Shown piece by piece: positions 36,056 to 57,378 of a stretch of DNA of 64,000 bases. A model generated the notes under the pieces. The model was not told the DNA's origin and made no database searches. It was given only the letters and a program-made list of their open reading frames with translations. The position numbers and the translations under genes are program-made. Where the stretch lies: the NCBI RefSeq assembly GCF_010233585.1, contig NZ_CP045997.1:3683779-3747778 (forward strand), given 5' to 3'. Position 1 is the first letter of the stretch; every line of letters starts with the position of its first letter. This DNA comes from Spirosoma endbachense. Its GTDB lineage: Bacteria; Bacteroidota; Bacteroidia; Cytophagales; Spirosomataceae.

Positions 36056-38254
36056 TTAATTCTGTAACAGATCGTTAAGAGTTTTACTACGCTTATCAAT
36101 TCCCCAGTTTATAAACAGACCCAGGTAATAGAAGCGATTGGCCAGCGGCATCGACGCTTCCCTGTTTGTGAGTGAGCTGTATTGATAACCGAATATCTGC
36201 TGATTACCCAGCAAGTTGTTGGCCGAAAAGGCAAGCGTTGAATTAGCCTTACCGATGCGGGTCAAATAAGCCACCGTGGCTCCTACGTTATGATAGGCTG
36301 GTGTATGATCGGTCATAAACTGGTCCTTCGACCGATTGGGATTATAATAAGGCCGTCCTGATGCAAAGGTGTAGGTCAGACCGATGTTGAGCGGAATCGA
36401 CGGAATCAGCACATTGACAACGGTAGCCAGCGTATGCGTGGCCGCAAAACTGGGTTGCACCAGCATCGGATAGTCGAGATATTGCCGTTTTGTATCCAGG
36501 TATGAGTACGATACCCAATAGTTTACGTTCGGAAGACGGTTTTCTTCTTTCCAGAGTACCTCAAACCCACGGGCATAGCCTTTGCCGGTCGAACTGGTAT
36601 CGGGGCTTGTCCGAAGCAGCCGGTTATACGTTTTTTGATACAACTCCACCCGCAGCAACTGATTGGTCCGTACCATCTGATAACTCGCGATGTAGTGGGT
36701 AGCTTCCTGAAAACGCAGCGAGTTGCGGTTTGTATTGCTGATCAGGTAATCGTAGGTCGGTTGTTGGTAAAATTGCCCATAGCTAAGGGTCAGCTTATGA
36801 ACCTTTCCCGGTGCATAGCTCAGCGACATACGCGGTGCCACAGCCAGCCGACTGATTGCCGATGCCCCCTCGGCCCGCAGACCAAGCCGGGTGCTCAGCG
36901 TCCGACTCAGCGACACGTTACTTTCAGCAAAAACGGCGCCATATTGTTCGTTCAGATGCTGGGTTGGCGCAATCAGATGCTGTTGAGCCAGTTGCATGTC
37001 GGTTCCGGTCATGACATGGTCCATACCCAGGTACAGATCCGATCCTTTCCCGATCGACCGCCGAAAGACAACCCGCGTATTATAGACCTGCTGGGCAACC
37101 TGGCGCGACCGACGCAGCGATACCTGTCCATCGATCATCGGCAAAGAGTCAATTGACGCGGTATTATTGGATAAACTGGCGCCAAATCCGGCATTCATCG
37201 TCCATTCCTTACCCACACTGCCTGCATACGAAACGCTCACAAAACCATTGCTACTTACCAACCCATACTGGGCGGTTCGGCCGGTGGTATTCTGCAAAAA
37301 CTGGACGTTGTTGCGGCCAACCGTTCCAAGAATTTTCAGTACTCCTTTATCGCCAGCCCGATATTTGAGGTGAAACAGGCCGTCGAGGTATTCCGGGCCA
37401 GCGGTAAACGTGCGACGCTGCGGAACAATGTGATAATAGGGACTCATGTTCGTGTAGGTGATCGACCCACCTGCCGACAGCCGCTCAGGGCGGATCACGC
37501 GGTTCATTTCGAGCATGGCACCCGTTGTGCTGATGTTGCCGCCTATCGATGAACGGTCGGCCACATCGTTGGTTTCCAGAATCAAAGCCGATGACAACGC
37601 CTGACCGTACAGGGCCGAATAACCACCACTACTAAAGAAATTTCCCGAAAATAGCTCTGGCGCAAACCGACCCCGCTGCGACACACCCGGACTACCGTTG
37701 TAGAAAAAATTATTGGCCAGCAGTCCATCCACATACACCTTCGTTTCATCGCTGGTGCCGCCCCTGACAAACAACCCGGTAGCATCCGAAGTGGCCTGTA
37801 CACCGGGCATTGTCCGAATGCCATTCGCAATATCGGCATTGCTGCCACCCATTGCCCGAACCTCCAGCGCTTTCAGGCTGGGGAGCCCGCCCCGGCCCAG
37901 AAAATCAGTTTTTCGGGTTTTAACGGTGACACCATCCAGATTGATCGACTCTTCATTGAGCACGAACTTTAGTGTTACCTGCCGTGTCGTGTCGCTGATG
38001 GTAATCGTCATCGGCAGATGAGCATAACCCAACATCTGCGCCACCACCTGAACGGTTCCCCGACCATCGGTCGTGAACGAGAAGGAGCCATCGGCGTCGG
38101 TGGTGGCTCCGGCATACGAATTCAGGATACCAATATTAGCACTGGCTAGTGGCTTCATCTGTGCATTGAACACCTTACCCTGCACAACAACCTGACTCCA
38201 GGCAGGACTACTCAGAAGCAGCCCTAAAATGAATGTCTGTAGACGTGTTTTCAT
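36056..38254 (-). CDS. TonB-dependent outer-membrane receptor
   Basis: A 732-aa receptor: signal peptide (~1-20), carboxypeptidase-regulatory-like domain (VVQGKVFNAQMKPLASANIG, ~22-105), plug domain (LFVRGGTSDETKVYVDGL, ~165-185) and a C-terminal 22-strand barrel ending in LGLFINWGID. It starts four bases after the arginase stop, so the two are tightly coupled. In this setting it may import, export or sense the peptide product or its metal complex. There is no accompanying SusD protein. Confidence 0.9.
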   Translation of the reverse strand: MKTRLQTFILGLLLSSPAWSQVVVQGKVFNAQMKPLASANIGILNSYAGATTDADGSFSFTTDGRGTVQVVAQMLGYAHLPMTITISDTTRQVTLKFVLNEESINLDGVTVKTRKTDFLGRGGLPSLKALEVRAMGGSNADIANGIRTMPGVQATSDATGLFVRGGTSDETKVYVDGLLANNFFYNGSPGVSQRGRFAPELFSGNFFSSGGYSALYGQALSSALILETNDVADRSSIGGNISTTGAMLEMNRVIRPERLSAGGSITYTNMSPYYHIVPQRRTFTAGPEYLDGLFHLKYRAGDKGVLKILGTVGRNNVQFLQNTTGRTAQYGLVSSNGFVSVSYAGSVGKEWTMNAGFGASLSNNTASIDSLPMIDGQVSLRRSRQVAQQVYNTRVVFRRSIGKGSDLYLGMDHVMTGTDMQLAQQHLIAPTQHLNEQYGAVFAESNVSLSRTLSTRLGLRAEGASAISRLAVAPRMSLSYAPGKVHKLTLSYGQFYQQPTYDYLISNTNRNSLRFQEATHYIASYQMVRTNQLLRVELYQKTYNRLLRTSPDTSSTGKGYARGFEVLWKEENRLPNVNYWVSYSYLDTKRQYLDYPMLVQPSFAATHTLATVVNVLIPSIPLNIGLTYTFASGRPYYNPNRSKDQFMTDHTPAYHNVGATVAYLTRIGKANSTLAFSANNLLGNQQIFGYQYSSLTNREASMPLANRFYYLGLFINWGIDKRSKTLNDLLQN

Positions 38255-38258
38255 GTCT

Positions 38259-39479
38259 TTACGAAATAGTTAGATAGCTCATTAGGCGAAGCAAGATTTC
38301 CATAGCCACCTGCGTGGTCAGATCCGTTGAATCGAAGTCGGGATTGGCTTCTACCAGATCGAAGCCTACTAGTTGACGTCCTGGCAGGAGCTGGCTAAAA
38401 AGCTGTTTGATCTCCTCCAGCGAAAAGCCTCCCGGTATCGGCGTTGCGGTGCCAGGCAGAACGGTCGGGTCCAGAACATCGACATCGAACGTCACGTAAT
38501 AAGGAACATCGTCGGGCAAATCGAATCGTTTTCCCTGCCGTAACTGCTCGCTCACCTGATGACACCAGTGAATGTGCTGTTTCGGGCGCGGCCTGGTTCC
38601 GGCATTGGCAAATCCGCGAATGCCAAACTGATAGACTTGCTGTACGTTGCTCAATTCCAGGCACTTCGTCATAAAATTACCGTAATGATGCACTTTCCCC
38701 CAGTGATTTATACTGTCGTACCGCGAGCCGTAGGTATCGGTGTGGGCATCGAAATGAATGACGTGTAAATTGGGATAAGTCTCAGCGGCTGCCTTAATAA
38801 GCGGATAGCTGATGGAGTGGTCGCCCCCGATAAAGGCCGGAATTTTACCGGCTTTAAACAATTGGCTCGCCATGTGGTGAATTTTGGCGTATACAAAAGC
38901 CGTCGACTCATTGGCGTTCACAAACAGATTACCGTAATCAACCAGCTTGCTGTTCTGAAACAGGGGCTGAAGACGCGTGGCGGTCAGCTCATCAAAAAGC
39001 AGAAAATCAGCCCCTTTCAACAGAAGATTGTTATTCTGGCTAAACTCCCGGATGTGAAACGGGAACTTCGCCCCGCCCATCGACTTCCCATTTCCCTTGC
39101 CAAACGGAATACCGACAATAACGACTTCGGCCCGCTCGTGATAGGCATCTACCCCAAAGATCCGGTTCTTTACCGCCATCACATCGGCCGTAAAACGCTC
39201 CCACCCTTCTGTGCTGGGATCGAGTAGCAATCCATTTCGTTGCAGATAGGCGATAGCCAGCTCAAGCTGATCATTCTCTATGTCCATTTCGTCAAACAGC
39301 GCGTCGGTCGTGGCAGGCTGTCTAAAGAAATCAAGGATCGAAACAATGGCCGGGCTAACTTCGTAGCTCTTTCCACTGATCATGTTGAAGATGGTGCCTT
39401 TACCCGTTTGATTCGACAGGGTAATGTCAAGATAAGGCGACTTTAACAACAGGGGCGAAACAGAAACGTCGGTTATCAT
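38259..39479 (-). CDS. PqqD-like domain fused to arginase (candidate RiPP peptide arginase)
   Basis: A 406-aa two-part protein. Residues ~10-90 form a PqqD-like winged-helix domain (GTIFNMISGKSYEVSP, ending YLQRNGLLLDP), the fold RiPP enzymes use to grip leader peptides. Residues ~110-406 are a ureohydrolase with the dinuclear-metal motifs GGDHS (His221), HFDAHTD (Asp244, His246, Asp248) and FDVDVLDP (Asp332, Asp334). Plain arginases and agmatinases lack the N-terminal part. Every precursor in the array has an invariant Arg next to Cys, so conversion of that Arg to ornithine, as by the peptide arginase OspR, is the proposed reaction. It follows the M50 gene by 15 bases. Confidence 0.85.
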   Translation of the reverse strand: MITDVSVSPLLLKSPYLDITLSNQTGKGTIFNMISGKSYEVSPAIVSILDFFRQPATTDALFDEMDIENDQLELAIAYLQRNGLLLDPSTEGWERFTADVMAVKNRIFGVDAYHERAEVVIVGIPFGKGNGKSMGGAKFPFHIREFSQNNNLLLKGADFLLFDELTATRLQPLFQNSKLVDYGNLFVNANESTAFVYAKIHHMASQLFKAGKIPAFIGGDHSISYPLIKAAAETYPNLHVIHFDAHTDTYGSRYDSINHWGKVHHYGNFMTKCLELSNVQQVYQFGIRGFANAGTRPRPKQHIHWCHQVSEQLRQGKRFDLPDDVPYYVTFDVDVLDPTVLPGTATPIPGGFSLEEIKQLFSQLLPGRQLVGFDLVEANPDFDSTDLTTQVAMEILLRLMSYLTIS

Positions 39480-39494
39480 GGCGATGGAGTTTAG

Positions 39495-40775
39495 TTAGTG
39501 AGCGAATCGACTACGGATAGCCGTTCGGATAGCTTGTCGGCTCTGGCGGGCATACCCCAGCGAGAAGTAAGCAAACAACCCGACCGTTAGTGACGATTTC
39601 AGAAACGGCTCAGCCGAGCAGACCGAGAAATCCATGAAGAATTGATAGGTGGTCTGTGGATAATGCAGCACGACCTCAAAGAATGTTTTGAAAGCGAACA
39701 CGAAAAAATAGGCCAGAAACCACAACCGCCCCAGGCTATATACCAGCAGAAACGGATTTTTCAGGTCTACTTCCGGATCGTTCGCCCTGGCCGGTTTCCG
39801 AAGTGACGGAAGCACTTTACCCGCCAGATTACGAACATACAGGACTGACTGACGACGCAGATTAGGCAGCGAGAACAGGTCGCTGTAGATCCAGTACCCG
39901 TCGAATTTGAGGAATGGAATGGCGTTGATAATGATCGTCGCCACATTGAGCTGAATAAGATAGCGGGTTGTATTGATCTGGCCGAAATCGCCGAAGTGAC
40001 TGACCAGATACCCGATCAGGATCAGGTTGATGAGAAGCTGAAAATAAATACCCCCCAGGTTAACGATGGTTCGTTTGAGTTTCCCGAGCCGCCAGACCTC
40101 CGTAACATCGGTATAGAGTACCGGAAAAATCAGGTATAAGCCCGCTCCAATTTCTTTAGGTTTGATACCGAACCGGTAGCCCGCAGCGGCATGGCCCAGT
40201 TCGTGAATTAATAGAATACCAAGTACGACGGGATAAAAAACGAGCATATGCCACAGCCCCCGGTCGCAATCACCCGTGGCCAGGGTAGCCGCGTTGTGAT
40301 TTTGCACATAATGATCGAGGGCCAGCAATTCACGCATCAGGTACGTATTAGCGGCCAGCGCCACCACGAAGGTAATGCCAAAGAATACGGGCGAAAAAAC
40401 GTACTGAATGATACGAAGCAACCAGGCATACTGGTTAAACCGAAGCAGTGTATACCGGGCATATATATTGCCGAGGGCCGGATTGCTGGCCTGGCTTGTT
40501 TCTGCCTGAGGAGCGTCGAAAACGCCCATTGGCCGGAGTTTATCCTCTACCAGCCGGGCCACATCGTCGGCCCCGAAATGCGTTTCGCTCTGGCGGGCGT
40601 TGAGTGTTTCGCTGATTTGCTGATAGGTAAGCTTCCGGCTGACACCATCCAAAATGAGGTACACAAATTCCCCGACTTTATAAGGCCGCCCACTTACGGT
40701 CAGCAAAAACTGTCGGTTGGAGTCCGAGCGCTCCATCTCTTCTATTCGGAACGAGTCGGTTTCTAAGGCGATCAT
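39495..40775 (-). CDS. PqqD-like domain fused to M50 membrane metallopeptidase
   Basis: A 426-aa protein from the ATG at 40775. Residues ~25-90 resemble a PqqD leader-binding domain (RPYKVGEFVYLILDG ... VARLVEDKLRPMGVF). A site-2-protease-like membrane domain follows, with HELGH (~191-195) and the second zinc-ligand motif FLKFDGYW, in a bundle of five to six hydrophobic helices. The PqqD-M50 pairing is known from RiPP loci, where such proteins are proposed to cleave or secrete the peptide. It lies directly downstream of the precursor array across a terminator-like hairpin, and upstream of the arginase gene. Confidence 0.87.
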   Translation of the reverse strand: MIALETDSFRIEEMERSDSNRQFLLTVSGRPYKVGEFVYLILDGVSRKLTYQQISETLNARQSETHFGADDVARLVEDKLRPMGVFDAPQAETSQASNPALGNIYARYTLLRFNQYAWLLRIIQYVFSPVFFGITFVVALAANTYLMRELLALDHYVQNHNAATLATGDCDRGLWHMLVFYPVVLGILLIHELGHAAAGYRFGIKPKEIGAGLYLIFPVLYTDVTEVWRLGKLKRTIVNLGGIYFQLLINLILIGYLVSHFGDFGQINTTRYLIQLNVATIIINAIPFLKFDGYWIYSDLFSLPNLRRQSVLYVRNLAGKVLPSLRKPARANDPEVDLKNPFLLVYSLGRLWFLAYFFVFAFKTFFEVVLHYPQTTYQFFMDFSVCSAEPFLKSSLTVGLFAYFSLGYARQSRQAIRTAIRSRFAH

Positions 40776-40813
40776 GGTCAAGTCGGTTTAGGAAAGTTAT
40801 GGGGAGAGAAAAA

Positions 40814-40848
40814 GCCGACGCCCCCACAAACGGGGCGGGAACGTCGGC
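40814..40848 (-). terminator. Hairpin plus T-run between precursor array and M50 gene (possible attenuator)
   Basis: Read on the minus strand, GCCGACG pairs with CGTCGGC (40842-40848 with 40814-40820), with an inner GC-rich stem and then TTTTT. It lies 21 bases after the last precursor stop and 38 bases before the M50 start, in an otherwise continuous unit. Partial termination here would raise precursor transcript over enzyme transcript. Confidence 0.7.
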
Positions 40849-40868
40849 ATGTGCATCAGCGAGATCGA

Positions 40869-40982
40869 CTAAACGCTAACACTATTGTCGCTGCAACGGG
40901 CTGAATCGGCGGCTGCTACGGTCGTTTCAAAGCGATCTTCGAGTTCAACGATCGTCAGTACTTCTGGAGTTGTGTTATTCAT
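40869..40982 (-). CDS. Precursor peptide 1 (37 aa) of the IVELE-RFE family
   Basis: Direct translation from the ATG at 40982. It begins MNNTTPEVL, followed by TIVELEDRFE, a spacer TTVAAADSA, the invariant RCS, and the tail DNSVSV. Arg29 and Cys30 are candidate modification sites: Arg for the arginase, Cys with Ser/Thr for further chemistry. It is the shortest and last of seven tandem copies. The ATG is preceded by a TTTTCA..CTTTTCAAAT-type leader shared with copies 2 and 3. Confidence 0.85.
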   Translation of the reverse strand: MNNTTPEVLTIVELEDRFETTVAAADSARCSDNSVSV

Positions 40983-41043: not shown

Positions 41044-41163
41044 CTATACTTCGACCGTGTTGCCACTGCAACGGCCAGCATCGGCAGCAGCTGCTGTGGT
41101 TTCGAAACGCTCTTCGAGTTCAACGATTGTCAGAGATTTGGCTGGAGAAGTTGTGTTGTTCAT
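41044..41163 (-). CDS. Precursor peptide 2 (39 aa)
   Basis: Starts MNNTTSPAKSL, then TIVELEERFE, TTAAAADAG, RCS and the tail GNTVEV. It departs from its siblings in having Gly before the Arg and Ala-rich spacing. The upstream ~30 bases nearly match those of copies 1 and 3, so these three are the most recent duplicates. Confidence 0.85.
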   Translation of the reverse strand: MNNTTSPAKSLTIVELEERFETTAAAADAGRCSGNTVEV

Positions 41164-41223: not shown

Positions 41224-41343
41224 CTATACCTGGACGTTGTTGTCGCTGCAACGAGCTGAATCAGCGGCTGCTACAGTGGTTTCGAAACGCTCTTCGAGTT
41301 CAACAATTGTCAATGATTCGGCTTGGGGTGCTGTGTTGTTCAT
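41224..41343 (-). CDS. Precursor peptide 3 (39 aa)
   Basis: Starts MNNTAPQAESL, then TIVELEERFE, TTVAAADSA, RCS and the tail DNNVQV. Core residues after the Cys vary between copies (DN, GN, NN), while the Arg-Cys-Ser step and the following Asn are fixed. Confidence 0.85.
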   Translation of the reverse strand: MNNTAPQAESLTIVELEERFETTVAAADSARCSDNNVQV

Positions 41344-41401
41344 GATTGATTTAATTTGAAAAGTGAAAAAATTGAAAGTGAATTATAGCGGTAAATACGT
41401 C

Positions 41402-41527
41402 CTAAAGGGACCGGAGACTGTTGTTGCTGCACCGGGCTGAATCGAGTGCGGCAACGGTCATTTCGAAGCGATCTTCGAGCTCAACAATCGTTAGCGATTC
41501 GTCGTGATAAACGGGTAAATTCTCCAT
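41402..41527 (-). CDS. Precursor peptide 4 (41 aa), most divergent copy
   Basis: Starts MENLPVYHDESL, then TIVELEDRFE, MTVAALDSA, RCS and the tail NNSLRSL. It is the only copy with Met in place of the first spacer Thr and a Leu in the Ala run, and its N-terminus is unrelated to the others. The tail carries a second Arg. Confidence 0.85.
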   Translation of the reverse strand: MENLPVYHDESLTIVELEDRFEMTVAALDSARCSNNSLRSL

Positions 41528-41564: not shown

Positions 41565-41714
41565 TTAGTAGACTACACCATCGGGCGGGACTGGCGCATT
41601 TACCTTAACGGTATTGCCACTGCAACGATCGGTATCGGCGGCCGCAACGGTCGTTTCGAAACGCTCTTCGAGTTCAACAATCGAGAGAGCCGGGGCGAAG
41701 ATTTTCGTGTTCAT
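41565..41714 (-). CDS. Precursor peptide 5 (49 aa), extended C-terminus
   Basis: Starts MNTKIFAPAL, then SIVELEERFE, TTVAAADTD, RCS and GNTVKV. A unique extra tail NAPVPPDGVVY makes it the longest copy. The extension is Pro-rich and ends in an aromatic residue, so its mature product would differ clearly, or the tail is removed. Confidence 0.85.
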   Translation of the reverse strand: MNTKIFAPALSIVELEERFETTVAAADTDRCSGNTVKVNAPVPPDGVVY

Positions 41715-41912: not shown

Positions 41913-42044
41913 TCAGGCAGCTACAACGGGAACTTTAACCGTGTTATTGCTGCAACGCTCGCTGTCAGCAGCGGCAACGGTCGTTTCAAAACGCTCTTCG
42001 AGTTCAACGATTGACAGAGCTGAGGTAGAAAGTTGTGAGTTCAT
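41913..42044 (-). CDS. Precursor peptide 6 (43 aa)
   Basis: Starts MNSQLSTSAL, then SIVELEERFE, TTVAAADSE, RCS, NNTVKV and a short PVVAA tail. It uses Ser before IVELE, as do copies 5 and 7. A 198-base gap with no gene separates it from copy 5. Confidence 0.85.
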   Translation of the reverse strand: MNSQLSTSALSIVELEERFETTVAAADSERCSNNTVKVPVVAA

Positions 42045-42231: not shown

Positions 42232-42357
42232 CTAAACTGCTGAAACAGTGACCGTGTTGCCGCTGCAACGGGCTGAATCGGCGGCTGCTACGGTGGTTTC
42301 GAAACGCTCTTCGAGTTCAACAATTGACAGGGCTGGGGTAGAAACTTGTGCGCTCAT
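42232..42357 (-). CDS. Precursor peptide 7 (41 aa), first in transcription
   Basis: Starts MSAQVSTPAL, then SIVELEERFE, TTVAAADSA, RCS and the tail GNTVTVSAV. It follows the acyl carrier protein gene by 164 bases in the same direction. A 187-base gap without a gene separates it from copy 6. Confidence 0.85.
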   Translation of the reverse strand: MSAQVSTPALSIVELEERFETTVAAADSARCSGNTVTVSAV

Positions 42358-42521: not shown

Positions 42522-42809
42522 CTAGACGACGGCCAGTGCATTCTCCTGAACTTTGCGAGCAACCTGCTCACTCAGCGTATCCAGGTTTTGGAAAGCTTCT
42601 TCACCTAAATCAGAAGGCATCAGGCCAAATTCTTCGGCCAGGCGGGAGGCAATCTCCAGAATAGCCAGTGAGTCCTGAATAACGCCCGGATGATCTTCAG
42701 TGCCGAAGAAAGGGGTTTCGTTGGTTAGTTCGACAAGCTCACCATCGGCTTGTAATACATCGATTACGATTTCACGGATACGGCCCTGGATGTTTGCTAA
42801 AGCTGACAT
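42522..42809 (-). CDS. Acyl carrier protein
   Basis: A 95-aa acidic helical protein with the phosphopantetheine attachment motif DSLAILEI (Ser ~47) following a loop, as in type II ACPs. It carries growing acyl chains for the ketosynthase pair encoded at 52504-55498, after activation by the PPTase at 46030-46656. It is the only ACP gene in the cluster, and it lies directly before the precursor array rather than with the ketosynthase genes. That placement ties the lipid part to the peptide part. Confidence 0.88.
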   Translation of the reverse strand: MSALANIQGRIREIVIDVLQADGELVELTNETPFFGTEDHPGVIQDSLAILEIASRLAEEFGLMPSDLGEEAFQNLDTLSEQVARKVQENALAVV

Positions 42810-48178: not shown

Positions 48179-48592
48179 TTAGTTGATATGGATGGTAATG
48201 GACTTGTCGCTATTGACCGTAAAAAGCATAGCGTCAAATTTGGGAGGGCCAAAAGAGGCCTTTACATTGTTTGAAACACCCCAGCCTTCTTTCGGAATAC
48301 CGAAAATACCCGTATCCATTTTCTTGTTATCGTTCTCATCGTGAAACAACCGTACGGCATAGGTTCCCGGCGGAACGTTCTGGAAAACGAGTTGGGCGTT
48401 GTTTTTCTGAACCAGCGCGGTCTGTTTCTGAACAGCCTTCTGGCCAGGGTCCTGAAGCGACGCATACACAGCTCCACTCTCCGTTTTGAGGTCGGTCACG
48501 TTGACCGTCACGGTGTGTGCATTAGCCTGATGTTGCGCTTTTGCGGCAAATGAGCCAGCCAGCAGTGTGGCGGCAAGGAGTACATTTTTCAT
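48179..48592 (-). CDS. DUF2141 secreted protein
   Basis: A 137-aa protein with a signal peptide (cleavage near AAKAQ) and a single beta-sandwich domain of DUF2141 type, with VPPGTYAVRLFHDENDNKKMDTGIFGIPKEGWG as its core and the DENDNKKMD loop as a likely cation site. The family is periplasmic and of unknown function. It lies between the LanB-like and AMP-ligase genes, so it probably belongs to the same operon. A carrier role for a hydrophobic product is speculation. Confidence 0.88.
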   Translation of the reverse strand: MKNVLLAATLLAGSFAAKAQHQANAHTVTVNVTDLKTESGAVYASLQDPGQKAVQKQTALVQKNNAQLVFQNVPPGTYAVRLFHDENDNKKMDTGIFGIPKEGWGVSNNVKASFGPPKFDAMLFTVNSDKSITIHIN

Positions 48593-48642: not shown

Positions 48643-51249
48643 TCAATTATTCACTGTTACTAAAGGCTGATTGATAGCCGCTCCGGGCAACGGTTCTACA
48701 ACAGAGCTGACAGGCTTCGGAGCATACCATTGCGGCACGGCTTCTACCGCATAGCGTTTCCCTTCGATACGGATTAGCTCATCGGATGTCGGTCGCATTT
48801 CCACCACTTTCAGGAGGGCTCCTACCGTAACGGCTTTCCGCACTAATCGCCGAAACAGATCCACCAGCAAGGCATTGTCGAAGCGGATGTACTGGGGTTT
48901 GTGGTCATCGGGATTGGGTGCATCGGGTAAACTGACAAATACTTCATCGGGTAACTGATATCGTTGTTGCCAGCTATGGGCGGCTCGAAAAAAAGTAAAC
49001 GAATCACCTTCGATGGGCAGCGCGGCCTCCGCCCCAACGGGTAACCACCACGTCTTTCGCTGAATGATCAACCGGCGGTCCAGCACGATGCGCGGTCCTA
49101 TCCGTATCGTTCCGGCAGGTTTTTGCTCAGCGTACCACGCATTGATAACCGAGTTAAACACTGTCAGACTCAGCTCCGGCAACGGAGCAAACTGACACAG
49201 AAACGTATATAAGCGAGACCGATCTGCCTGAAAGCCCATATCCACAACCTGCACCCGCTTATGGCCTGGTGCATGCCAGAGATCAACCCGCTGGCCGTCG
49301 TCCGATAAGCGTACCGATAAGTCGCTGAGCGGAATGGCTTGTACCGATGAAGGTGGTACATGACCCGCCGGTGTCAAAATAGATCCCTCAACCAGTGCCG
49401 GATGGAAGTTTGCGTTATGATAATGGTCGTCGGTAGCTTCTACAAGCAAACAATCGGCAGGAGTGGCACTGTGGTTTGTCTTGACAAGTTCGTGCGTCAG
49501 ACTATGGTTAAAGTAAGGCAGGAATCGCCCATAAAGGCGCCCAAAGCCGCCAGCTAATTCATTCAGTGCGGCACAAAGTCGCCCTCGACTATCGGTCCAC
49601 GATTGCCAGAAAACAGCCTGGCTGAGTAGGGTATCCGACGAATCAGGAATCCATTCACTTCGTAGCTGTATTGTGTCAGCACGAAGCCCTTCAGCAGCCC
49701 AGTGCTCCCATTGCTGTCGAATATCAGGGGCAATTACTGAGCTCTTCTGGAACGATTCCGGTTGGCTCAGGTAATGCGCAAAGAACGTAGTTACGGGTAC
49801 AGATTCGGTTGTCGGATAGGTAGTTTTGAACAGGTTTGCCAAGGAATAAGCAGGCGGTGTGCAAACCTCCACCATATGCCTCGTCAACCTATCAACACTG
49901 GTAATCAGGCGTTTTACATCAGGCTTGGGTAAATGCCCCTGAAGCGAACGGGTAACGTCTTCAAAAAATAACTGTTCGGCTCGCAGCGGCCAGAAATCAG
50001 GAGCTGGTGGAGCTGGAAGTTGCCCAATATGCTCTGCCAGCACACCCTGTGCTTTCGATAACAGCGAAAGTCGCTGACCGGGCGTAGCCATTGGCAACAT
50101 TGTGGCCGTGGCCAGCAGGGCATGGATCAAACTAAGCTGACTATCGACAAACCTGGGTGCCATCCATCGGTACTGAGTCAGCCAGTCCTGCAACCGTATC
50201 GCCCAGTCAGCATCAGCCGCCGACACAGGCAATGGATGCTGCAAAAGGCCCAGTTCAATCAGTTTGTCAATGTATTGATGTGCTTCCAGGCTTGTTGATC
50301 GAAATTTTTGTTGAATCCGATCGACCCAATCCTTGTACGTTCGCGCCGGGCGACGCATCGACGTTACCCACCGGAGAACGGGGTTAAGGGAAATTTTAAC
50401 GCAGGCTACCTGACCATTCGTCTGACGGATGTAGCTAAGGCCCTCTCCCGAAATCAACACACTCGGGTTCACCATTACAGGCCATTGTTCATATAACCGC
50501 CGGTTTGTTCGTAGCATAGCGTCGAATACGCCCAACAACCGAACCGACAGTCGCACATGCGAACGGGGTGAGCCCGCTTTCCAGTCCAGCGATTCGCCAG
50601 CATGTACGGGTATTGTGGCCAGATGGGTTAGGGTGCTGTAGGGTGTGGTTTTGGTAGCCGCCCGCGAGAGATAGCGCAACAGCCCGTTTTCAACCTGAAA
50701 ATCATCCTTCCGAAAACTGGCCGGATTCGTCTGTTGATAAGCCACTACCTGACGGAGCAATGATAAGCTCGACAAAGCCAGCCCCCGCTGAAAAGCTGCA
50801 TTTCCGACGAGTTGCTGAAAACGCTGCCGACCCTGAATCGCCTGCAGACGATAGAGTTTCGCGGTTGTGTTCATGTAGCGTTCCAGCGCCTTACGATCAT
50901 CGATATACGTTATCAATTGATTCAGTAACGATTCGGATAGCCAGTGTTGGGCCTGCGTTATGTCTTTAGGGCGAATTGCCCGATCATTGTGCAGATCACG
51001 ACGTAATTGCTGTAGTTGCTGCTGCGGTTTTCCGGGCGGACAATGCTTCTCGATCACCGCAAACAAAGCAGCCAGTAAGGGTTCTTTGCGGCTTTCTACC
51101 CGCCGACGCCAATGTTCATACTGATGCAGCCGATGGGTGATTACGGGTGCTCGCAGCCCGTCGAGCACATCGATAGACAGTCCGGCTACGCGCAGCAGCA
51201 CCGGCGACAGGAGCTTGGGCTTGTTCGGAGTAGGCATAGTTCGGGTCAT
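48643..51249 (-). CDS. LanB-like glutamylation-domain protein without elimination domain (PEARL-like)
   Basis: An 868-aa protein aligned to the N-terminal LanB domain: VLLRVAGLSIDVLDGL at the start, RAATKTTPYSTLTHLA (~215-230), and IRIGPRIVLDRRLIIQRKTWWLPVG late. The C-terminal SpaB_C segment that is obvious in the other LanB (18074-21184) is absent, and the protein ends soon after an EVFVSLPDAPNPD-type core. LanB-like proteins of this length either work with a separate eliminase or act as PEARLs, adding an amino acid from aminoacyl-tRNA to a peptide C-terminus. No separate eliminase gene is visible nearby. Which peptide is the substrate is inferred to be the seven precursors. Confidence 0.82.
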   Translation of the reverse strand: MTRTMPTPNKPKLLSPVLLRVAGLSIDVLDGLRAPVITHRLHQYEHWRRRVESRKEPLLAALFAVIEKHCPPGKPQQQLQQLRRDLHNDRAIRPKDITQAQHWLSESLLNQLITYIDDRKALERYMNTTAKLYRLQAIQGRQRFQQLVGNAAFQRGLALSSLSLLRQVVAYQQTNPASFRKDDFQVENGLLRYLSRAATKTTPYSTLTHLATIPVHAGESLDWKAGSPRSHVRLSVRLLGVFDAMLRTNRRLYEQWPVMVNPSVLISGEGLSYIRQTNGQVACVKISLNPVLRWVTSMRRPARTYKDWVDRIQQKFRSTSLEAHQYIDKLIELGLLQHPLPVSAADADWAIRLQDWLTQYRWMAPRFVDSQLSLIHALLATATMLPMATPGQRLSLLSKAQGVLAEHIGQLPAPPAPDFWPLRAEQLFFEDVTRSLQGHLPKPDVKRLITSVDRLTRHMVEVCTPPAYSLANLFKTTYPTTESVPVTTFFAHYLSQPESFQKSSVIAPDIRQQWEHWAAEGLRADTIQLRSEWIPDSSDTLLSQAVFWQSWTDSRGRLCAALNELAGGFGRLYGRFLPYFNHSLTHELVKTNHSATPADCLLVEATDDHYHNANFHPALVEGSILTPAGHVPPSSVQAIPLSDLSVRLSDDGQRVDLWHAPGHKRVQVVDMGFQADRSRLYTFLCQFAPLPELSLTVFNSVINAWYAEQKPAGTIRIGPRIVLDRRLIIQRKTWWLPVGAEAALPIEGDSFTFFRAAHSWQQRYQLPDEVFVSLPDAPNPDDHKPQYIRFDNALLVDLFRRLVRKAVTVGALLKVVEMRPTSDELIRIEGKRYAVEAVPQWYAPKPVSSVVEPLPGAAINQPLVTVNN

Positions 51250-51286: not shown

Positions 51287-52489
51287 TTACTCGGCCGATT
51301 GCAGCACGCCCTGGCTCCACCAGTGATCGATAAACGCACCGTCTGATGCTGAATCGCCCTCGGCGGAGGTTGAATCGCTGGACTGTTCCAATTGGTGCAA
51401 CCAGTCAAACGCATCGTCGGTCAGCGGAAAGGCCTGATAGGTCTGTCGGTCGAAGAGGTAGCCAGTCTGTTCTATTTTGAAAAGACTGTACCGTTCTTCG
51501 TTGAATCGGAAGGCCGTAACCGGAGCATCCGCGACGGGTTCATCGTCCGACGAGGTAGCCGTCAGCGCATCAAAATCAAGGAATTTGTGAAAGTAAAACC
51601 AGCTTTCCCACTGATCGACATACCGCCGGACATAGCCGGCCAGCAGGTCATACAGTTGCTGGGTTGTTTCGCGTACAAACACCTCGGCCTGAACAGCTTT
51701 AGGTGCTATGGCGGGCAGGCAGTCATAATATGGGATCTCGACACCATCCACCGTTTTGTAATACGAGATAATCGGAATGATAGGCGTTCGGGTCGCATGG
51801 GCCAGCGTGGCAATTCCGCTTCGTGACACGATGGTCTTATTCAGGAATGAAACCCGCAGCTGCCGGTTATTGCGCTGATAAATGCCCCCAACACCCGTAT
51901 TACCATCCAGAAAAATCAGAATTGATCGGCCTTTGTGCAAAGCTCCGGCCATCTGCCGGCCAATGGCCGGACTCTCGGCATCCAGCATGTCGATTGAGGC
52001 CGACGCCTGGTTGTATTGATTCAGCTGAGCCGAAATGTTTTCGATGTACTCCTTCTGACTTCTCAGCGTGCGGTTATCGATCACCAGCGTGAGCGGATAA
52101 CCCGCGTTCAGCAGCATGGCCAGAACGGCCCGATAGCCCCCCAGATGATACGTACAGAAGATGCGCGAAGGTCGGGGCGAATCGGTCGGCTTCAGGAAAT
52201 CGGTATCACCGTTTATACCCATGTGAGCCAGCGAACCAAAATCGACGTAGCGAAAACTGCGGGCGCTCAGCCAGTGATTCGTCAGCAGTCGGAAATAAAT
52301 CGCTTCATGTCGCTCGGCGGGAACATCGGGGCAGAAATGGCTCAGATTGGCCCGCAGGAAATGCAGATCTTTTTGCTGGTGTGCTTTTTTCTTCTGCTTT
52401 TCGCGTTCGCTTACCTCCTGATAAGCCCGTTCGTAGGTCTGCCGAAATGCGGTGCCGTAGGTTTCCCAAAAAGACGATTGCATGGTCAT
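51287..52489 (-). CDS. LPLAT-type acyltransferase with possible PqqD-like tail
   Basis: A 400-aa protein resembling the lauroyl/myristoyl (LpxL/M-like) acyltransferase superfamily: RIFCTYHLGGYRAVLAML (~109-127) aligns with the HxxxxD/E catalytic block, and ILIFLDGNTGVGG and RTPIIPIISYYK fit later blocks. The acidic residue of HxxxxD/E is Arg120 here, so activity may be altered. The last ~70 residues (SLFKIEQTGYLFDRQTY ... FIDHWWSQGVLQ) resemble a PqqD-like domain, which would let the enzyme dock on the precursor leader. It could transfer the ACP-bound acyl chain to the peptide. Confidence 0.75.
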   Translation of the reverse strand: MTMQSSFWETYGTAFRQTYERAYQEVSEREKQKKKAHQQKDLHFLRANLSHFCPDVPAERHEAIYFRLLTNHWLSARSFRYVDFGSLAHMGINGDTDFLKPTDSPRPSRIFCTYHLGGYRAVLAMLLNAGYPLTLVIDNRTLRSQKEYIENISAQLNQYNQASASIDMLDAESPAIGRQMAGALHKGRSILIFLDGNTGVGGIYQRNNRQLRVSFLNKTIVSRSGIATLAHATRTPIIPIISYYKTVDGVEIPYYDCLPAIAPKAVQAEVFVRETTQQLYDLLAGYVRRYVDQWESWFYFHKFLDFDALTATSSDDEPVADAPVTAFRFNEERYSLFKIEQTGYLFDRQTYQAFPLTDDAFDWLHQLEQSSDSTSAEGDSASDGAFIDHWWSQGVLQSAE

Positions 52490-52503
52490 AACAAGTGGAC
52501 GAT

Positions 52504-53748
52504 TTAGGGTTTACGAATTGCCAGCGTCACGGCATTACCGCCTACGTGCAGCGAATGAACAAAGGCCGTTGCGCCAGCGCCAAAAACCCGGTCGGTTGTG
52601 CGTTTTGGAGCCACGGTAGGCAATCCAACCTGCGCCGGTTCGTAACCTGTTCCAATAACCACATTGTCGCGCAGACACAAGGCCCCGGCCAGCAATGACA
52701 TAATCGGCGAAGCACTGAAGGTTTCGCCCGTTTGCCCTTTGATGTTGGCATAAGCGGGCAAGCTGCTATCGGCCCACAGATCCTGAATAGCGGGCGTTTC
52801 GTAGTCGCGAATATGCCAGGGCAGTCCTCCCCCACCCACGAACAAATCGACGCCCGATGGGTCAATCTGGCTGTTTTGGCAGAATTCGGTCAGGTGATCG
52901 AGCAGATCGTCGGCACTGCGTTCGTAGATAAAATCCCGGTAGGACGTATCGCCCGACACCTGGTAATTAACGATTTCAGCCAGTACAGCAGCCTGCCGAC
53001 GCAGGGCGTGTTCGGCTGATTCGAGCACCGCAAACGCAGCCCCTTCGCCGTAGACAATGATGCCCTGTTCATCGCGGAGACTCTCGGCAAACGTCCGGCG
53101 CTGGCCCGACGAGTCGGTTACTGAAGGCAGGTAGCCCCGATACAGATTCGCCAGCAGCGTAGTCTCCCTGATTTCGTCGAAACCACCGCAGATAACCACA
53201 TCGGCTTTTCCATCCCGAATGAGATCATACCCATAGCAAACGCTGTTCTCACCGAGCAGGATCGAGCTGGGCCCTTTGAGTTTAAAAGCACGGGCTACGT
53301 CGCCGAGGGCACAATTGGTCGTTGTTTTGGTGAATACGAAAGGGCTTACCTTAGACGGGCCGTCGGTATAGAGTTTATACAAAAAGGCTTCGGCCGCGGC
53401 ATTGGCGCTGAGCGTTGTATCCAGGATCAAACCTAGTTGCTCGGGTACGAGTCCGGTCAGATCCAGCCCGGCATTGTCGATGGCCAGTCGACAGCCGACC
53501 ATGGCCAGTTGCGAATAGCGAAGCGGAAATGGCGGGCGTAAATTACCGACATGATCGGTCAGTGAAAAATCGGCGCAGGGTGCGTAGAAAATGGCTTCAT
53601 TAGTGGCCAGATCGGGAACATTCCAGGTATCTTTCACCGTGACAGCCGACTCATTCCGGCGCAGAGCGTCCCAGAATGGCTCCAGACCTACACCCAGACC
53701 GGACAGGACTCCACCCCCGGTCAGCACTACAGATGGTTTGGTTTTCAT
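52504..53748 (-). CDS. Chain-length-factor-like (degenerate) ketosynthase
   Basis: A 414-aa ketosynthase homologue in which all three catalytic residues are missing. The nucleophile loop reads SSILLGENSVC (161-171) with about five residues deleted relative to the active partner. The HGTxTG motif is replaced by GGGGLPWHIRDY, and the second His site is KGQTGETFSAS. Fold marks such as GGFDE, GEGAAFAVLES and GATAFVHSL persist. This is the pattern of chain length factors that pair with an active ketosynthase in type II PKS/aryl polyene systems. Its partner is at 54281-55498; the dehydratase gene lies between. Confidence 0.83.
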   Translation of the reverse strand: MKTKPSVVLTGGGVLSGLGVGLEPFWDALRRNESAVTVKDTWNVPDLATNEAIFYAPCADFSLTDHVGNLRPPFPLRYSQLAMVGCRLAIDNAGLDLTGLVPEQLGLILDTTLSANAAAEAFLYKLYTDGPSKVSPFVFTKTTTNCALGDVARAFKLKGPSSILLGENSVCYGYDLIRDGKADVVICGGFDEIRETTLLANLYRGYLPSVTDSSGQRRTFAESLRDEQGIIVYGEGAAFAVLESAEHALRRQAAVLAEIVNYQVSGDTSYRDFIYERSADDLLDHLTEFCQNSQIDPSGVDLFVGGGGLPWHIRDYETPAIQDLWADSSLPAYANIKGQTGETFSASPIMSLLAGALCLRDNVVIGTGYEPAQVGLPTVAPKRTTDRVFGAGATAFVHSLHVGGNAVTLAIRKP

Positions 53749-53762
53749 GATCAGGGTTGGAG

Positions 53763-54254
53763 TTAAGAGTTGATGAGTACCGTAACGATTCCCTTGGCGG
53801 CCAGGCCACGGCCATCGATGTCGACGCGCGCTTTAAAGACCGAGAAATTGAGCATTTTATGATCGAATACGGACTGGATACGTACTGTATCATTGGGCAA
53901 CACGGGCTTGTTGAACGTCATGTTGTCAATTTTTATGGCTCGTCCGGAGCGGGGCCGATAGTCTTTTTGTATCGAACTCAAATCCACGGCGTTGAGCGCT
54001 TCGAGCCGCCCGAAAATCCCGCACGCCTGAAACATCATTTCGACCAGCACCACCCCAGGCAGAATAGGCTCTCCCGGAAAATGACCCTGAAAAAACATCG
54101 TATCGGGTTTTACGAACGTTTCGGCCAGCACCGACACACCGGGTGAGTAATCGATCAACCGATCGATGAGCAGCATGGGTGGCCGGTGTGGCAGCAGATC
54201 CTGCGGACGAATCTGATCGACCTGTATCTGATTAAATAGCGTTACTGAAGTCAT
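53763..54254 (-). CDS. FabZ-like 3-hydroxyacyl-ACP dehydratase
   Basis: A 163-aa hot-dog-fold enzyme with LLPHRPPMLLIDRLIDY and the active-site segment GHFPGEPILPGVVLVEMMFQA, holding the catalytic His and Glu. It dehydrates beta-hydroxyacyl-ACP during chain growth. It sits between the CLF-like and ketosynthase genes, so it belongs to the dedicated type II system and not the primary FAS. Confidence 0.92.
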   Translation of the reverse strand: MTSVTLFNQIQVDQIRPQDLLPHRPPMLLIDRLIDYSPGVSVLAETFVKPDTMFFQGHFPGEPILPGVVLVEMMFQACGIFGRLEALNAVDLSSIQKDYRPRSGRAIKIDNMTFNKPVLPNDTVRIQSVFDHKMLNFSVFKARVDIDGRGLAAKGIVTVLINS

Positions 54255-54280
54255 AAGGAAAAGGGTCTTGGCGTACGTAA

Positions 54281-55498
54281 TCAGTTATCGAAGCGTCGGA
54301 GTGCGATGGAGGCCATACAGCCGCCAAAGCCAAAGGAATTGGAAAGAGCAGCTCGAATTGGCTGATCGATAGCACGGTTCTGTACAAGCCGGATTGGCCC
54401 TTCATCGGCGACCATTGTGGTTTGTACGTTGCAGGAAGGGGGCACGAAACTATGGTAGATTCCCAGCGCCGTAGTGATGAATTCGATGCTCCCGGCCGCT
54501 CCCAGTGTATGACCGATCATCGACTTGGTCGAACTGATATAAACAGGCCGGTCATTCATCAATCGTCCGATACCGTTCAGTTCCATGCTGTCGTTGACGC
54601 CGGTTGCCGTACCATGCGCATTGATATAATCCAATTCGTCGGCGGTCATGTTGCCATGCTGAAGTGCCTGTTTCATGGTCAGGAACGCCGTGCTGCCATC
54701 GGGTGTTGGGGCCGTTGGATGGTGTGCTTCATTATTGGCCGAATACCCTTTTAGTTCGCAGTAGATACGGGCGCCCCGTTCCTGAGCATGAGTCAGGCTT
54801 TCGAGTACGACAAAGGCACTCGCATCGCCCAGGGTCAGGCCGTCCCGGTTTTTATCGAACGGCTGGCAAATGGACTTCGACAGCGATTGAAGCGAATTGA
54901 AACCCGCAAAACTCAGTTCGGTAAAAATGTCGATTCCACCCGCAACGGCTACATCTACCCGGCCTCCAGCCACAAAATCAAATCCCCGGCCAATTGAGTT
55001 TGTACCTGCCGCACAGGCCGTTGATATGGTCGATGATGGCCCTCGCCAGCCTAAGGCCCGCATGAAAGAGCCCGTTATGTTGGGGGTCGATGCCTTGAAG
55101 AGCAGTTCATAATCAGCAACCTCAATCCCTTCCTGGATTCGCTTTTTGGTAAAATCCATGAACGCATACGAACCGCCGATTGTGGTAGCTACAAACAGCC
55201 CCGCCCGGTGAGGATTAAGCTCCTGTGGCACCAGACTTGCGTCATTCAGCGCTTCGGCAATAACGCGATTGCCCAGGTAGGTTAGCACGGTTTCATCAGA
55301 TGCTTCAATATCGGCATACAGGTCCTGGTCGAGTACACAAGCCTGCTTGTTGGCATAGCATGCACTATCTGTCGGGAAGCGTTTCGGATCGATGGGTTTG
55401 AGCCCCAGTCGTCCGTTGTAGACACTATCCTTGAATTCATCTTTTGTCTGGCCAATAGAGCAGCATACGCCAATGCCAGTAACAACAACTCGTTCCAT
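54281..55498 (-). CDS. Beta-ketoacyl-ACP synthase (FabF-like, active)
   Basis: A 405-aa ketosynthase with an intact triad: Cys162 in STACAAGTN, His295 in AHGTATG and His330 in KSMIGHTLGAAG. It condenses malonyl-ACP with the acyl chain. Together with the CLF-like protein it should form a KS-CLF heterodimer. It starts 44 bases after the ketoreductase gene. No malonyl transferase is present, as expected for systems that borrow FabD. Confidence 0.93.
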   Translation of the reverse strand: MERVVVTGIGVCCSIGQTKDEFKDSVYNGRLGLKPIDPKRFPTDSACYANKQACVLDQDLYADIEASDETVLTYLGNRVIAEALNDASLVPQELNPHRAGLFVATTIGGSYAFMDFTKKRIQEGIEVADYELLFKASTPNITGSFMRALGWRGPSSTISTACAAGTNSIGRGFDFVAGGRVDVAVAGGIDIFTELSFAGFNSLQSLSKSICQPFDKNRDGLTLGDASAFVVLESLTHAQERGARIYCELKGYSANNEAHHPTAPTPDGSTAFLTMKQALQHGNMTADELDYINAHGTATGVNDSMELNGIGRLMNDRPVYISSTKSMIGHTLGAAGSIEFITTALGIYHSFVPPSCNVQTTMVADEGPIRLVQNRAIDQPIRAALSNSFGFGGCMASIALRRFDN

Positions 55499-55542
55499 AA
55501 AAGTAAGGGTTTAGGAAAATGAAGTGATCAGAACGATGTAGC

Positions 55543-56289
55543 TTAGGATACACCCAGTCCACCGTCGATGGTGAGTTCCTGACCGATAATATAGCTGGGC
55601 GCATCGCAGAGCATGTAGGTTACCAGATTAGCAACTTCATCGGCACCACCTTTGCGTTTCAACGGAGACCACACCAGGCGATTGGCCACGTATTCGTTGC
55701 TGATGTCGCGGGTCATGTCGGTATCGATAAGTCCCGGCGAAATACAGTTAACCGTAATGCCGAACCGCCCTACTTCTTTGGCTAACGACCGGGAAAATGT
55801 CACCACTGCGGCTTTCGAGGCCGAATAAGCGGACTGACCTGCATTGCCTTTCTGGCCCGACAGTGACGTGATGTTGATAATCCGGCCCGCTTTGCGGGCA
55901 ATCATCATGGGCAGCAGAACCCGGCAGGTATTTGTCACGCTGCCCACGTTCGTCCGAATCACATCCCACCAGTGTTCGTCGGTAGCAAACAGGAAGGGTT
56001 TTCCGTCGCCAACGATACCCGCATTGTTGACAATAGCGTCCAGATAGCTAACGTCCTGCCGTATACGTTTCGCTAAAGCCAGCACTTCGGGTAAGCTGCT
56101 CATGTCGCAGCGGTAGGCAAAGGCCCCACCCGTTCCGATCTGATTAATCTCTGTGATGAGTTCTCCAGCTTTCACGTCATTGCTGAGGTAAGTGAAGAGA
56201 ACAGTGCAACCACGCTCAGCGAGCGCAAGGCATATAGAGCGGCCAATCCCGCGCGAGCCGCCGGTGACCAGAATAATGGATTTTTTCAT
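55543..56289 (-). CDS. FabG-like 3-oxoacyl-ACP reductase
   Basis: A 248-aa short-chain dehydrogenase from the ATG at 56289. It has the cofactor motif TGGSRGIGRSI, NNAGIVGD, the catalytic Ser in NITSLSGQ and YSASKAA (Tyr/Lys), and the FabG-type end DGGLGVS. It reduces beta-ketoacyl-ACP with NADPH. The lack of a recognisable enoyl reductase in the immediate operon suggests the chain may stay unsaturated or be reduced by FabI. Confidence 0.92.
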   Translation of the reverse strand: MKKSIILVTGGSRGIGRSICLALAERGCTVLFTYLSNDVKAGELITEINQIGTGGAFAYRCDMSSLPEVLALAKRIRQDVSYLDAIVNNAGIVGDGKPFLFATDEHWWDVIRTNVGSVTNTCRVLLPMMIARKAGRIINITSLSGQKGNAGQSAYSASKAAVVTFSRSLAKEVGRFGITVNCISPGLIDTDMTRDISNEYVANRLVWSPLKRKGGADEVANLVTYMLCDAPSYIIGQELTIDGGLGVS

Positions 56290-56393
56290 GAAACAGAAAG
56301 GAAAAAGGATTTGGGGAAGATTAGTTTTTATCGGTTTACAGCCCGTTACGAACAAGCGTAACAAGTAGTCATGCATACACCCCCGTAGAGGTA

Positions 56394-57074
56394 TTATTTA
56401 GCCGCAAGCTGGAGAAGTTTCCGGCAGTTGGCGGCCTGGCGTTCGGCTGGTTTACGCCCCCAGTTTACCTCGATCGTGTTAGCACGGTCCTTCTGTTTTT
56501 CGGCCAGTTCAACCGCTTTTTCAAAAAATGCTAGGGCTTCTTTCTTGCTACCGCCAAATTTCTCAGGTGTGTTATAGGACTGCTGACCCATTAAATAATA
56601 AGCGCGGGGGTTTTCGGCATCCAGTTGAACGGCTTTTTCAAGATTGGCCTGTGCCTTCATGATTCCCTGCATGCCCCGCTGCATCATGTTCACTTTGATT
56701 CCAGCCAATACGATCATGGCTTTGACACAATACACTTCCGAATTATTGGGTGAAATACGGTCGGCCTCATCGAGCAATTGCGTAGCCTGTTGACAGAGCG
56801 GATCTATTTTTTCAATGCTTGGCTCACTGAAGGCAGCCGTAACCGTGCAGAGCGCACCGTAGTAATACGGCAACCACTTGTCTTTTTCGGCGTTGGCAAC
56901 GCGGGAGAAAGCATTGGCCGTTTGTAGGTTCCCATCAACGCTTTGGGTTGTATCCATCCGGGTTATCAGTCCAGTCATTGCGGTTTTGTACTGATCGGTC
57001 GTTTGAGCTACTGCCATTGAGCCGGTAAGTAGCGTAGCGGCCACAAGAGAGCCGATGTGTTGTTTGGTTTTCAT
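56394..57074 (-). CDS. Secreted TPR-like protein
   Basis: A 226-aa protein from the ATG at 57074, giving a signal peptide (cleavage near MAVAQ). The mature part is helical with TPR-like repeats (ANLEKAVQLDAENPRAYYLMGQQ, ALAFFEKAVELAEKQKD). A periplasmic protein-interaction role is expected. It lies between the XRE regulator and the ketoreductase genes on the same strand, so it is probably the second gene of the large unit. Confidence 0.82.
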   Translation of the reverse strand: MKTKQHIGSLVAATLLTGSMAVAQTTDQYKTAMTGLITRMDTTQSVDGNLQTANAFSRVANAEKDKWLPYYYGALCTVTAAFSEPSIEKIDPLCQQATQLLDEADRISPNNSEVYCVKAMIVLAGIKVNMMQRGMQGIMKAQANLEKAVQLDAENPRAYYLMGQQSYNTPEKFGGSKKEALAFFEKAVELAEKQKDRANTIEVNWGRKPAERQAANCRKLLQLAAK

Positions 57075-57126
57075 TGGAAATCGGTCGGTTATAAGTGAAA
57101 AATTGACAAGAGACGTTTCTGATAGC

Positions 57127-57378
57127 TTAAGAGCTGGCGTTGGTGGTTTTCTGAACCGCCATAATGAGCAGGTCCGACAGACTAAGTGCAATCAGATCGA
57201 GCATCGAAATCTGATATAGGCTGGCCAGTTGTTCCAGCACGGTTAGCGACAATTCAGTTTTACCATTTTCTTTTTTACTATAGGCTGCCTGGCTGATGCC
57301 CATCTGATAGGCAACGTACTCTTGTGGGTAGCCGTAGATTTCACGGAGTTTGCGGAGTTTGATGGCAATGGCGCTCAT
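57127..57378 (-). CDS. XRE-family transcriptional regulator (small)
   Basis: An 83-aa protein from the ATG at 57378, chosen for its compact HTH start. The helix-turn-helix spans LRKLREIYGYPQEYVAYQMGISQAAYSKKENGKTELSL, followed by a short hydrophobic helix. It is the first gene of the cluster in transcription order, 52 bases before the TPR gene, and has a promoter-like sequence upstream. It may control the biosynthetic unit. Confidence 0.87.
   Translation of the reverse strand: MSAIAIKLRKLREIYGYPQEYVAYQMGISQAAYSKKENGKTELSLTVLEQLASLYQISMLDLIALSLSDLLIMAVQKTTNASS

Follow-up and report, generated by a model that had tools for sequence, protein, structure and literature searches.

A Spirosoma gene cluster that probably specifies leader-guided lipidated peptides with their own acyl synthase

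A window of 64,000 nucleotides (the whole stretch of DNA that was analysed, positions 3,683,779 to 3,747,778 of contig NZ_CP045997.1) from the 10.3-Mb genome of Spirosoma endbachense carries on its minus strand a run of about 24 open reading frames (ORFs), from 57429 down to 36056, with a helix-turn-helix (HTH) gene first and a TonB receptor gene last. From its gene content and that of its relatives, this cluster probably specifies leader-guided, lipidated ribosomally synthesized and post-translationally modified peptides (RiPPs), for which a dedicated synthase would build the acyl chain and an LPLAT-type acyltransferase would transfer it to the core peptide, most likely at or next to a cysteine. 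After the HTH gene, the ORFs encode a TPR-like protein, a ketoreductase (KR), a ketosynthase (KS), a dehydratase (DH), a chain-length-factor-like protein (CLF), the LPLAT, a LanB-like protein, a DUF2141 protein, an acid ligase, a 4'-phosphopantetheinyl transferase (PPTase), a thioesterase (TE), a TonB receptor, an acyl carrier protein (ACP), seven precursors, an M50 protease, an arginase and a second TonB receptor. A sequence-only reading of the same DNA had listed its genes correctly, and all those it named were found on the minus strand (36056-57429); a full-length LanB and a minimal cassette of a peptide and an LPLAT, both described below, had escaped it. The members on which the argument turns are the following:

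51287..52489, minus strand: LPLAT-type acyltransferase with a PqqD-like C-terminal tail (residues about 326-400), from homologues, profile comparison and tree; proposed leader-guided peptide acyltransferase
42232..42357, minus strand: precursor 1
41913..42044, minus strand: precursor 2
41565..41714, minus strand: precursor 3
41402..41527, minus strand: precursor 4
41224..41343, minus strand: precursor 5
41044..41163, minus strand: precursor 6
40869..40982, minus strand: precursor 7, start placed as in precursors 5 and 6, within a frame that is open from further upstream
39495..40775, minus strand: M50 metalloprotease with a PqqD-like N-terminal domain (PF02163, 3e-7)
38259..39479, minus strand: arginase with a PqqD-like N-terminal domain (PF00491, 3e-53)
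55543..56376, minus strand: KR, FabG/FlxB-like (FabG-like match)
54281..55498, minus strand: KS, Cys-His-His intact (FabF-like match)
53763..54254, minus strand: 3-hydroxyacyl-ACP dehydratase, FabZ-like
52504..53748, minus strand: CLF, active-site Cys and both His replaced
46660..48168, minus strand: AMP-forming acid ligase (AMP-binding, 5e-60)
46030..46656, minus strand: PPTase (ACPS, 2e-8)
45268..46011, minus strand: type II TE (PF00975, 1e-38; GHSMG)
42522..42809, minus strand: ACP, Ser at residue 47 (PP-binding, 5e-4)

The seven precursor ORFs, of 37-49 amino acids, have the block L[ST]IVELE[ED]RFE[TM]T.AA.D..RC in common, a likeness far beyond chance, and show the arrangement typical of RiPPs, in which short precursors with a conserved leader and a variable core lie beside maturases. 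No NCBIfam match was obtained for the nine ELE-RFE precursors scanned. All 47 distinct precursors of 11 clusters, selected by the leader motif, have their cysteine exactly 10 residues past it; the seventh precursor of the window, omitted by a position filter, has the same register of 10. An arginine directly precedes the cysteine in 44 of the 47, and the remaining three, all from one cluster of the same genus (G694), have a valine there.

The profile PF05402 detects two PqqD proteins in the S. endbachense genome and none in the window, the three PqqD-like domains included, so that profile-profile comparison was used. Profiles were built of the LPLAT tail, the arginase head, the M50 head and 27 PqqD stretches (of 30 from Bacteroidota genomes). 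The LPLAT tail matched the arginase head with an E value of 5e-6 across 66 columns (two further masters gave 2e-5 and 9e-4); the link from arginase head to M50 head gave 1.7e-6 and that from M50 head to the PqqD set 1.3e-4. None of 60 column permutations reached the scores of these three links. The arginase head matched PqqD weakly (E 0.01, none of 60 permutations), and three unrelated regions of the same proteins, used as a control, gave E values of 0.26-0.87 against PqqD. The tail and the two heads look like one type of PqqD-like domain, in which case all three enzymes would probably bind the same leader, ELE[ED]RFE; that they would grip one leader is a good, if tentative, reading of these profiles. 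The PqqD domains that the sequence-only reading had seen on the arginase, the M50 protein and possibly the acyltransferase thus find support in profile-profile comparison, not in PF05402. The HExxH and DG motifs of the M50 proteins are kept in 16 of 16 cases.

The LPLAT is also encountered in a much smaller setting. In Spirosoma/Runella-type loci a peptide ORF lies directly upstream of the LPLAT gene, and no M50, arginase or synthase gene was found in the 11 peptide + LPLAT loci tallied. The peptide was present in 12 of 12 such cassette loci first viewed. It was also present in all 20 genomes fetched, with about 12-26 bases between its end and the LPLAT; one of these genomes (G741) was taken to be that of locus L015, the peptide being the same. 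One cysteine is invariant in all 29 aligned rows (31 distinct peptides, 29 rows shown, with repeated labels); most neighbouring positions vary, and no fixed basic residue precedes it. A Cys-Cys form is conserved in the Spirosoma genomes viewed and a single-Cys form in Runella. A cassette of this kind lies at about 2.339 Mb in S. endbachense itself, made up of an LPLAT gene (L072 10808-11923) and a 56-residue ORF about 18 bases upstream. Nothing points more strongly to Cys, or to a position linked with it, as acyl acceptor than this invariant cysteine of the cassettes. A wider proposal, of which we are slightly more doubtful than confident, is that PqqD-tailed proteins of the LPLAT fold are widespread leader-guided peptide acyltransferases that lipidate Cys, or Ser in its place, in systems ranging from the two-gene cassette of Spirosoma and Runella, with its hypervariable Cys peptide, to full clusters with a captured synthase, arginase and protease. 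If so, the cassette would be a very small system for testing acylation by LPLATs.

Relatives were collected as 33 LPLAT proteins and 35 genome loci, with further loci from whole-genome searches. An LPLAT match occurred in 5 of 395 genomes sampled from the phylum (E 1e-10) and in 41 of 390 sampled from the order (E 1e-20). A RiPP-type M50 protein was found in 21 of the 390, of which 15 also had an LPLAT, within about 15 kb of the M50 gene in nine. Neighbourhoods were viewed for 18 of the 21 genomes with an M50 match and for 31 of the 41 with an LPLAT match. The LPLAT matched PF03279 with an E value of 0.046, under the Pfam cut-off, and four of the 33 homologues among the matches listed carry this family; a search of its profile against solved structures gave no match, and no relative was confirmed in viral contigs. 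KS and CLF were both present in 12 of 29 LPLAT + M50 loci, as against none of the 11 peptide + LPLAT loci, and a KS-like gene without CLF in four further of the 29; in this tally L010 and L097, and likewise L017 and L098, are separate contigs of one genome.

Gene order differs between the synthase-bearing clusters: L007 reads KR, KS, ACP, precursors, M50, arginase, LPLAT, ligase, PPTase, DH, CLF, and G584 begins with LPLAT, ligase, PPTase, DH and CLF. In a tree, the LPLATs of 13 synthase-bearing loci and L009 form one group (100/96), those of the two-gene cassettes form a separate group (100/99), and other clades lack the synthase module; the gene set is retained, in shuffled order, in six families named by the tree. 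L009 was coded as lacking synthase genes, though its contig measures only 6.2 kb, and L005 as synthase-bearing, though its contig showed no KS. The tree omits L016, L022, L023 and L030, which are near-copies or repeat the locus of a retained row, as well as L033, because of its short length, and several genome loci that were not retrieved. Because of this tree group and the differing gene orders, we assign the synthase module to a single LPLAT clade, in which it has survived rearrangements, and by these comparisons the gene set is a real unit. The sequence-only reading had held that regular separation of the synthase genes from the precursor and arginase genes would speak against a joint pathway. 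Half of this was seen: six loci (L006, L013, L014, L018, L028 and L035) have arginase, M50, LPLAT and precursors without KS or CLF within the stretch covered, whereas the synthase-bearing LPLATs form one clade that retains the module.

These data also bear on the idea of two neighbouring pathways, in which synthase and LPLAT would make a lipid like an aryl polyene or flexirubin beside an unrelated ornithine (Orn) peptide. Aryl polyene and flexirubin synthases resemble the cluster in their KS-CLF, KR, DH, ACP, ligase and LPLAT, and the KR scores with the FlxB equivalog, but at 210.6 it stays under the cut-off of 340. The idea is rendered improbable by the resemblance between LPLAT tail and arginase head, by the set's retention in six families despite shuffled order, and by the LPLATs that stand alone beside a Cys peptide in the cassettes. 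We know of no peptide partner for the aryl polyene and flexirubin synthases.

In the arginase, PF12640 (the OspR type) gave no match and only PF00491 matches were obtained at E values up to 0.1; it is therefore not a peptide arginase of the OspR-type PF12640 and belongs to the Pfam family given for KgrD. Its residues at what we take to be the metal-ligand positions are intact in 11 of 11 aligned homologues. In 26 of 27 loci an Arg-Cys precursor and a head-bearing arginase are either both present or both absent (17 and 9 loci; Fisher 2e-6, counted by hand over loci that are not independent and uncorrected for kinship), L008 and L034, with no confident precursor, having been left out. In L010, one of the 17, the arginase lies on another contig of the same genome, and two of the nine (L095 and L104) are M50 loci from genomes without an LPLAT match. 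An Arcicella arginase had a TAA flagged in one genome match, yet its ORF read open over 406 residues. Because of the agreement across loci, the arginase very probably acts on the core Arg.

Whether the resulting Orn would also receive the acyl group is a separate matter. In a selidamide-like route, which differs from the favoured reading only in the acceptor, Arg would be converted to Orn and the LPLAT, in place of a GNAT enzyme, would acylate the Orn side-chain amine. Of the 11 Cys-type synthase clusters, 10 do combine an Arg-Cys core with an arginase, and selidamides are acylated on (hydroxy)ornithine or Lys according to the available text of PMC9505594. However, the G694 cluster (L079) has KR, KS, DH, CLF, LPLAT, ligase, PPTase, TE, M50 and three precursors, all three with a Val-Cys core, and its genome gave no arginase match at E 1e-10; it is the sole arginase-less cluster among the 11 with the Cys register. 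Because this cluster retains LPLAT and synthase, Orn can hardly be the general acyl site, and acylation in G694, if it occurs, needs no Orn. The Chitinophaga cluster L024 has neither a core Arg nor a head-bearing arginase, and the invariant Cys of the cassette peptides has no fixed basic residue before it. We regard this route as unlikely, and Orn as the acyl site was rejected as a rule, G694 and L024 speaking against it. Of the interpretation in the sequence-only reading, a leader-guided RiPP with its own acyl machinery, an LPLAT for the GNAT and an arginase acting on the core Arg are retained; Orn-side-chain acylation as a general step is not. The Val-Cys cluster of G694 offers a natural control for the role of ornithine.

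With regard to the chain, all eight KS compared have Cys162, His295 and His330, none of which is found in any of the nine CLF partners, and from this a KS-CLF pair follows. AmcH and salicylate and oxalate ligases are among the nearest to the ligase, and a generic fatty-acid-CoA-ligase model scores best; judged from these, a fatty, an aromatic or a short starter would each be conceivable. The ligase matches AmcH (7e-42), the DH AmcE (5e-13) and the KS AmcF (7e-66), which would suit a synthase making a short or cyclic acid of the cispentacin or coronafacate type for coupling to the peptide. All three matches are far under the equivalog cut-offs and are outscored by generic FabF, FabZ and CoA-ligase models, so that such an acid, although compatible with the rest of the favoured reading, seems improbable. 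KR, DH and KS-CLF without an enoyl reductase between 36056 and 57429 would suggest a polyene. A reductase of the MDR type (35006-36040) might saturate the chain; by eye, from the first residues, one lies beside the second TonB receptor also in S. terrae, G610, G694 and Arcicella (L078, L079, L099, L100).

Taking up again the favoured reading, of lipidation by the LPLAT at or next to Cys, we infer the reactions and their order, as well as acceptor, chain and any export, from the gene content. What the sequences themselves establish is the set of genes, unbroken active sites in KS, arginase and M50, the likeness of the domains, the constant register of the Cys, the coupling of arginase to core Arg and the retention of the set throughout a clade. 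The leader ELE[ED]RFE would be held by one PqqD-like domain type on the arginase, the M50 protease and the LPLAT. The arginase would convert the core Arg to Orn, and the ligase would load or prime the acyl chain, which the type II synthase (KS-CLF, KR, DH, ACP) would build as acyl-ACP with the assistance of PPTase and TE. The core would then receive the acyl group from the LPLAT, most likely on the Cys at its fixed distance from the leader, or via this Cys on a neighbouring amine, after which the M50 protein would remove the leader. Dehydration or aminoacylation of the core is a possible role for the LanB proteins.

Several observations weigh against this reading. Compared directly with PqqD, the LPLAT tail gave no significant match (E 0.06-0.09; for the three masters, 2, 1 and 0 of 60 permutations scored as well), and its match to the M50 head was weak (E 0.004-0.06, none of 60 permutations). 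By eye, the tail is shortened in 8 of 36 LPLATs (L009, L011, L012, the first of L017, L027, L028, L035 and L036), two of which (L011 and L012) belong to synthase clusters, and a PqqD-like tail is therefore not universal among LPLATs. The acyltransferase motif HX4D/E has an acidic residue expected after the His; the LPLAT has HLGGYR, without an acidic residue there. LPLAT and M50 genes are apart in 6 of the 15 genomes with both, all of one genus, by at least 59 kb or on different contigs. The discordant locus among the 27, L029, combines one Arg-Cys precursor with a genome that gave no arginase match at E 1e-30. The six precursors of L024, which has the gene set, contain no Cys; an Ala-Ser-Ile stretch common to five of them lies at about its place. 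Cys precursors also occur in L095 and L104, whose genomes gave no LPLAT match at E 1e-20 in a search that scored at most four candidates per genome; the Cys is thus not LPLAT-specific. Lastly, the cassette peptides carry a leader different from ELE-RFE.

Lipidated RiPPs as such are already known. In the available text of the papers cited here, the N-acyl chains of fatty-acylated RiPPs are made by GNATs (PMC9505594, PMC13060382), and other lipidated RiPPs arise by prenylation or through the lipoprotein pathway (PMC12636315). The selidamides phaeornamide and kamptornamide share with this cluster the RiPP character, arginase-made Orn and fatty acylation. They have a GNAT, an OspR-like arginase and an NHLP-family precursor, in contrast to the LPLAT, PF00491 arginase and ELE-RFE leader found here, and phaeornamide draws its fatty acid from primary metabolism instead of a dedicated synthase (PMC9505594). 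No GNAT was found among the cluster proteins scanned (KR, KS, DH and CLF against NCBIfam only). Lipolanthines, goadvionins and lipoavitides likewise join fatty acid or polyketide synthesis to a RiPP; they are lanthipeptides of class III that receive their lipid at the N-terminus from GNATs (PMC13060382), and neither a class III synthetase nor a GNAT turned up in the scans of the cluster proteins. KgrD of the enteropeptin pathway, like the arginase here, belongs to PF00491 and acts on a peptide Arg adjoining a Cys-derived residue; it does so after thiomorpholine formation, and the available text mentions no lipid step (PMC12703449). DAG-RiPPs of the chryseobasin type are lipidated Bacteroidota RiPPs with Cys as well, and use the lipoprotein pathway and an MNIO (PMC12636315); no MNIO was found among the cluster proteins scanned.

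The sequence-only reading could match the cluster to no described family, and none was found among the open-licence literature matches listed; these, judged mostly by titles and the beginnings of abstracts, held no paper on RiPP acylation by an LPLAT or on this cluster. In a 2025 paper on RiPP recognition elements (PMC12710340), a term search of the main text gave no occurrence of acyltransferase, arginase or M50. Three elements of the cluster are new: the LPLATs as an enzyme class bearing a leader-type domain, the precursors of the ELE-RFE family and a type II synthase linked with both. Proof that LPLATs acylate peptides would make theirs a new class of enzyme in its own right. Fatty acylation is rare among RiPPs, and a route through an LPLAT with a dedicated synthase would, if true, add an enzyme class for genetically programmable lipopeptides.

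The 868-residue LanB-like protein has only the N-terminal LanB family (Lant_dehydr_N, 4e-30), without PF14028, and resembles 6ec7 and the goadsporin protein 9jhq, which we take to be TbtB and GodF. About 14 kb separate the full LanB from the run; in S. terrae it is directly next to the cluster, and in G610 about 2 kb lie between them. A similar sequence occurs in the G709, G584, L014, L005 and L096 stretches, and no match was obtained in the stretches fetched around G694 and G700. The full LanB may dehydrate Ser/Thr after the Cys. The genome gave a single LanC match, at a distance of about 475 kb from the cluster, and lanthionine formation by LanB and LanC was rejected with no LanC nearby. The remaining features of the window are:

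57127..57429, minus strand: HTH regulator (HTH_3), first gene of the run (PF01381, 3e-11)
56394..57074, minus strand: TPR-like protein with an apparent signal peptide by eye (below Pfam cut-offs)
48643..51249, minus strand: LanB-like protein, N-terminal (glutamylation) family only (PF04738, 4e-30; 6ec7, 9jhq)
48179..48592, minus strand: DUF2141 protein, recurrent in relatives (Pfam)
42960..45401, minus strand: TonB-dependent receptor 1 (Pfam)
36056..38254, minus strand: TonB-dependent receptor 2 (TonB2), recurrent in relatives
35006..36040, minus strand: MDR-type double-bond reductase, possible enoyl reductase, adjoining TonB2 in relatives too
18074..21184, plus strand: full-length class I LanB, possible outlying member, outside the range of the run

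By eye, the TPR-like gene has counterparts in the L077, L079, L080, L082 and L084 clusters. No C39-peptidase ABC transporter was seen in the window cluster; one lies close to the precursors in G700 (L083 8616-10910), and an Arcicella gene (L099 8946-11240) has a similar start. In a Hymenobacter locus (L018 10938-13159), proteins like the ATP-grasp and SPASM maturases of grasp-with-spasm systems, below the curated cut-offs, adjoin the LPLAT gene, and such genes were also seen by eye in the Hymenobacter-type loci L008, L013 and L087. On the plus strand of the window, 60325-61017 encodes a small membrane protein that by eye is like DUF2306-like genes within the L080 and L082 clusters. Two large proteins with similar beginnings, encoded on opposite strands (10882-13269 and 32225-34591), flank the full LanB, and the second of these carries a CHU_C type IX signal.

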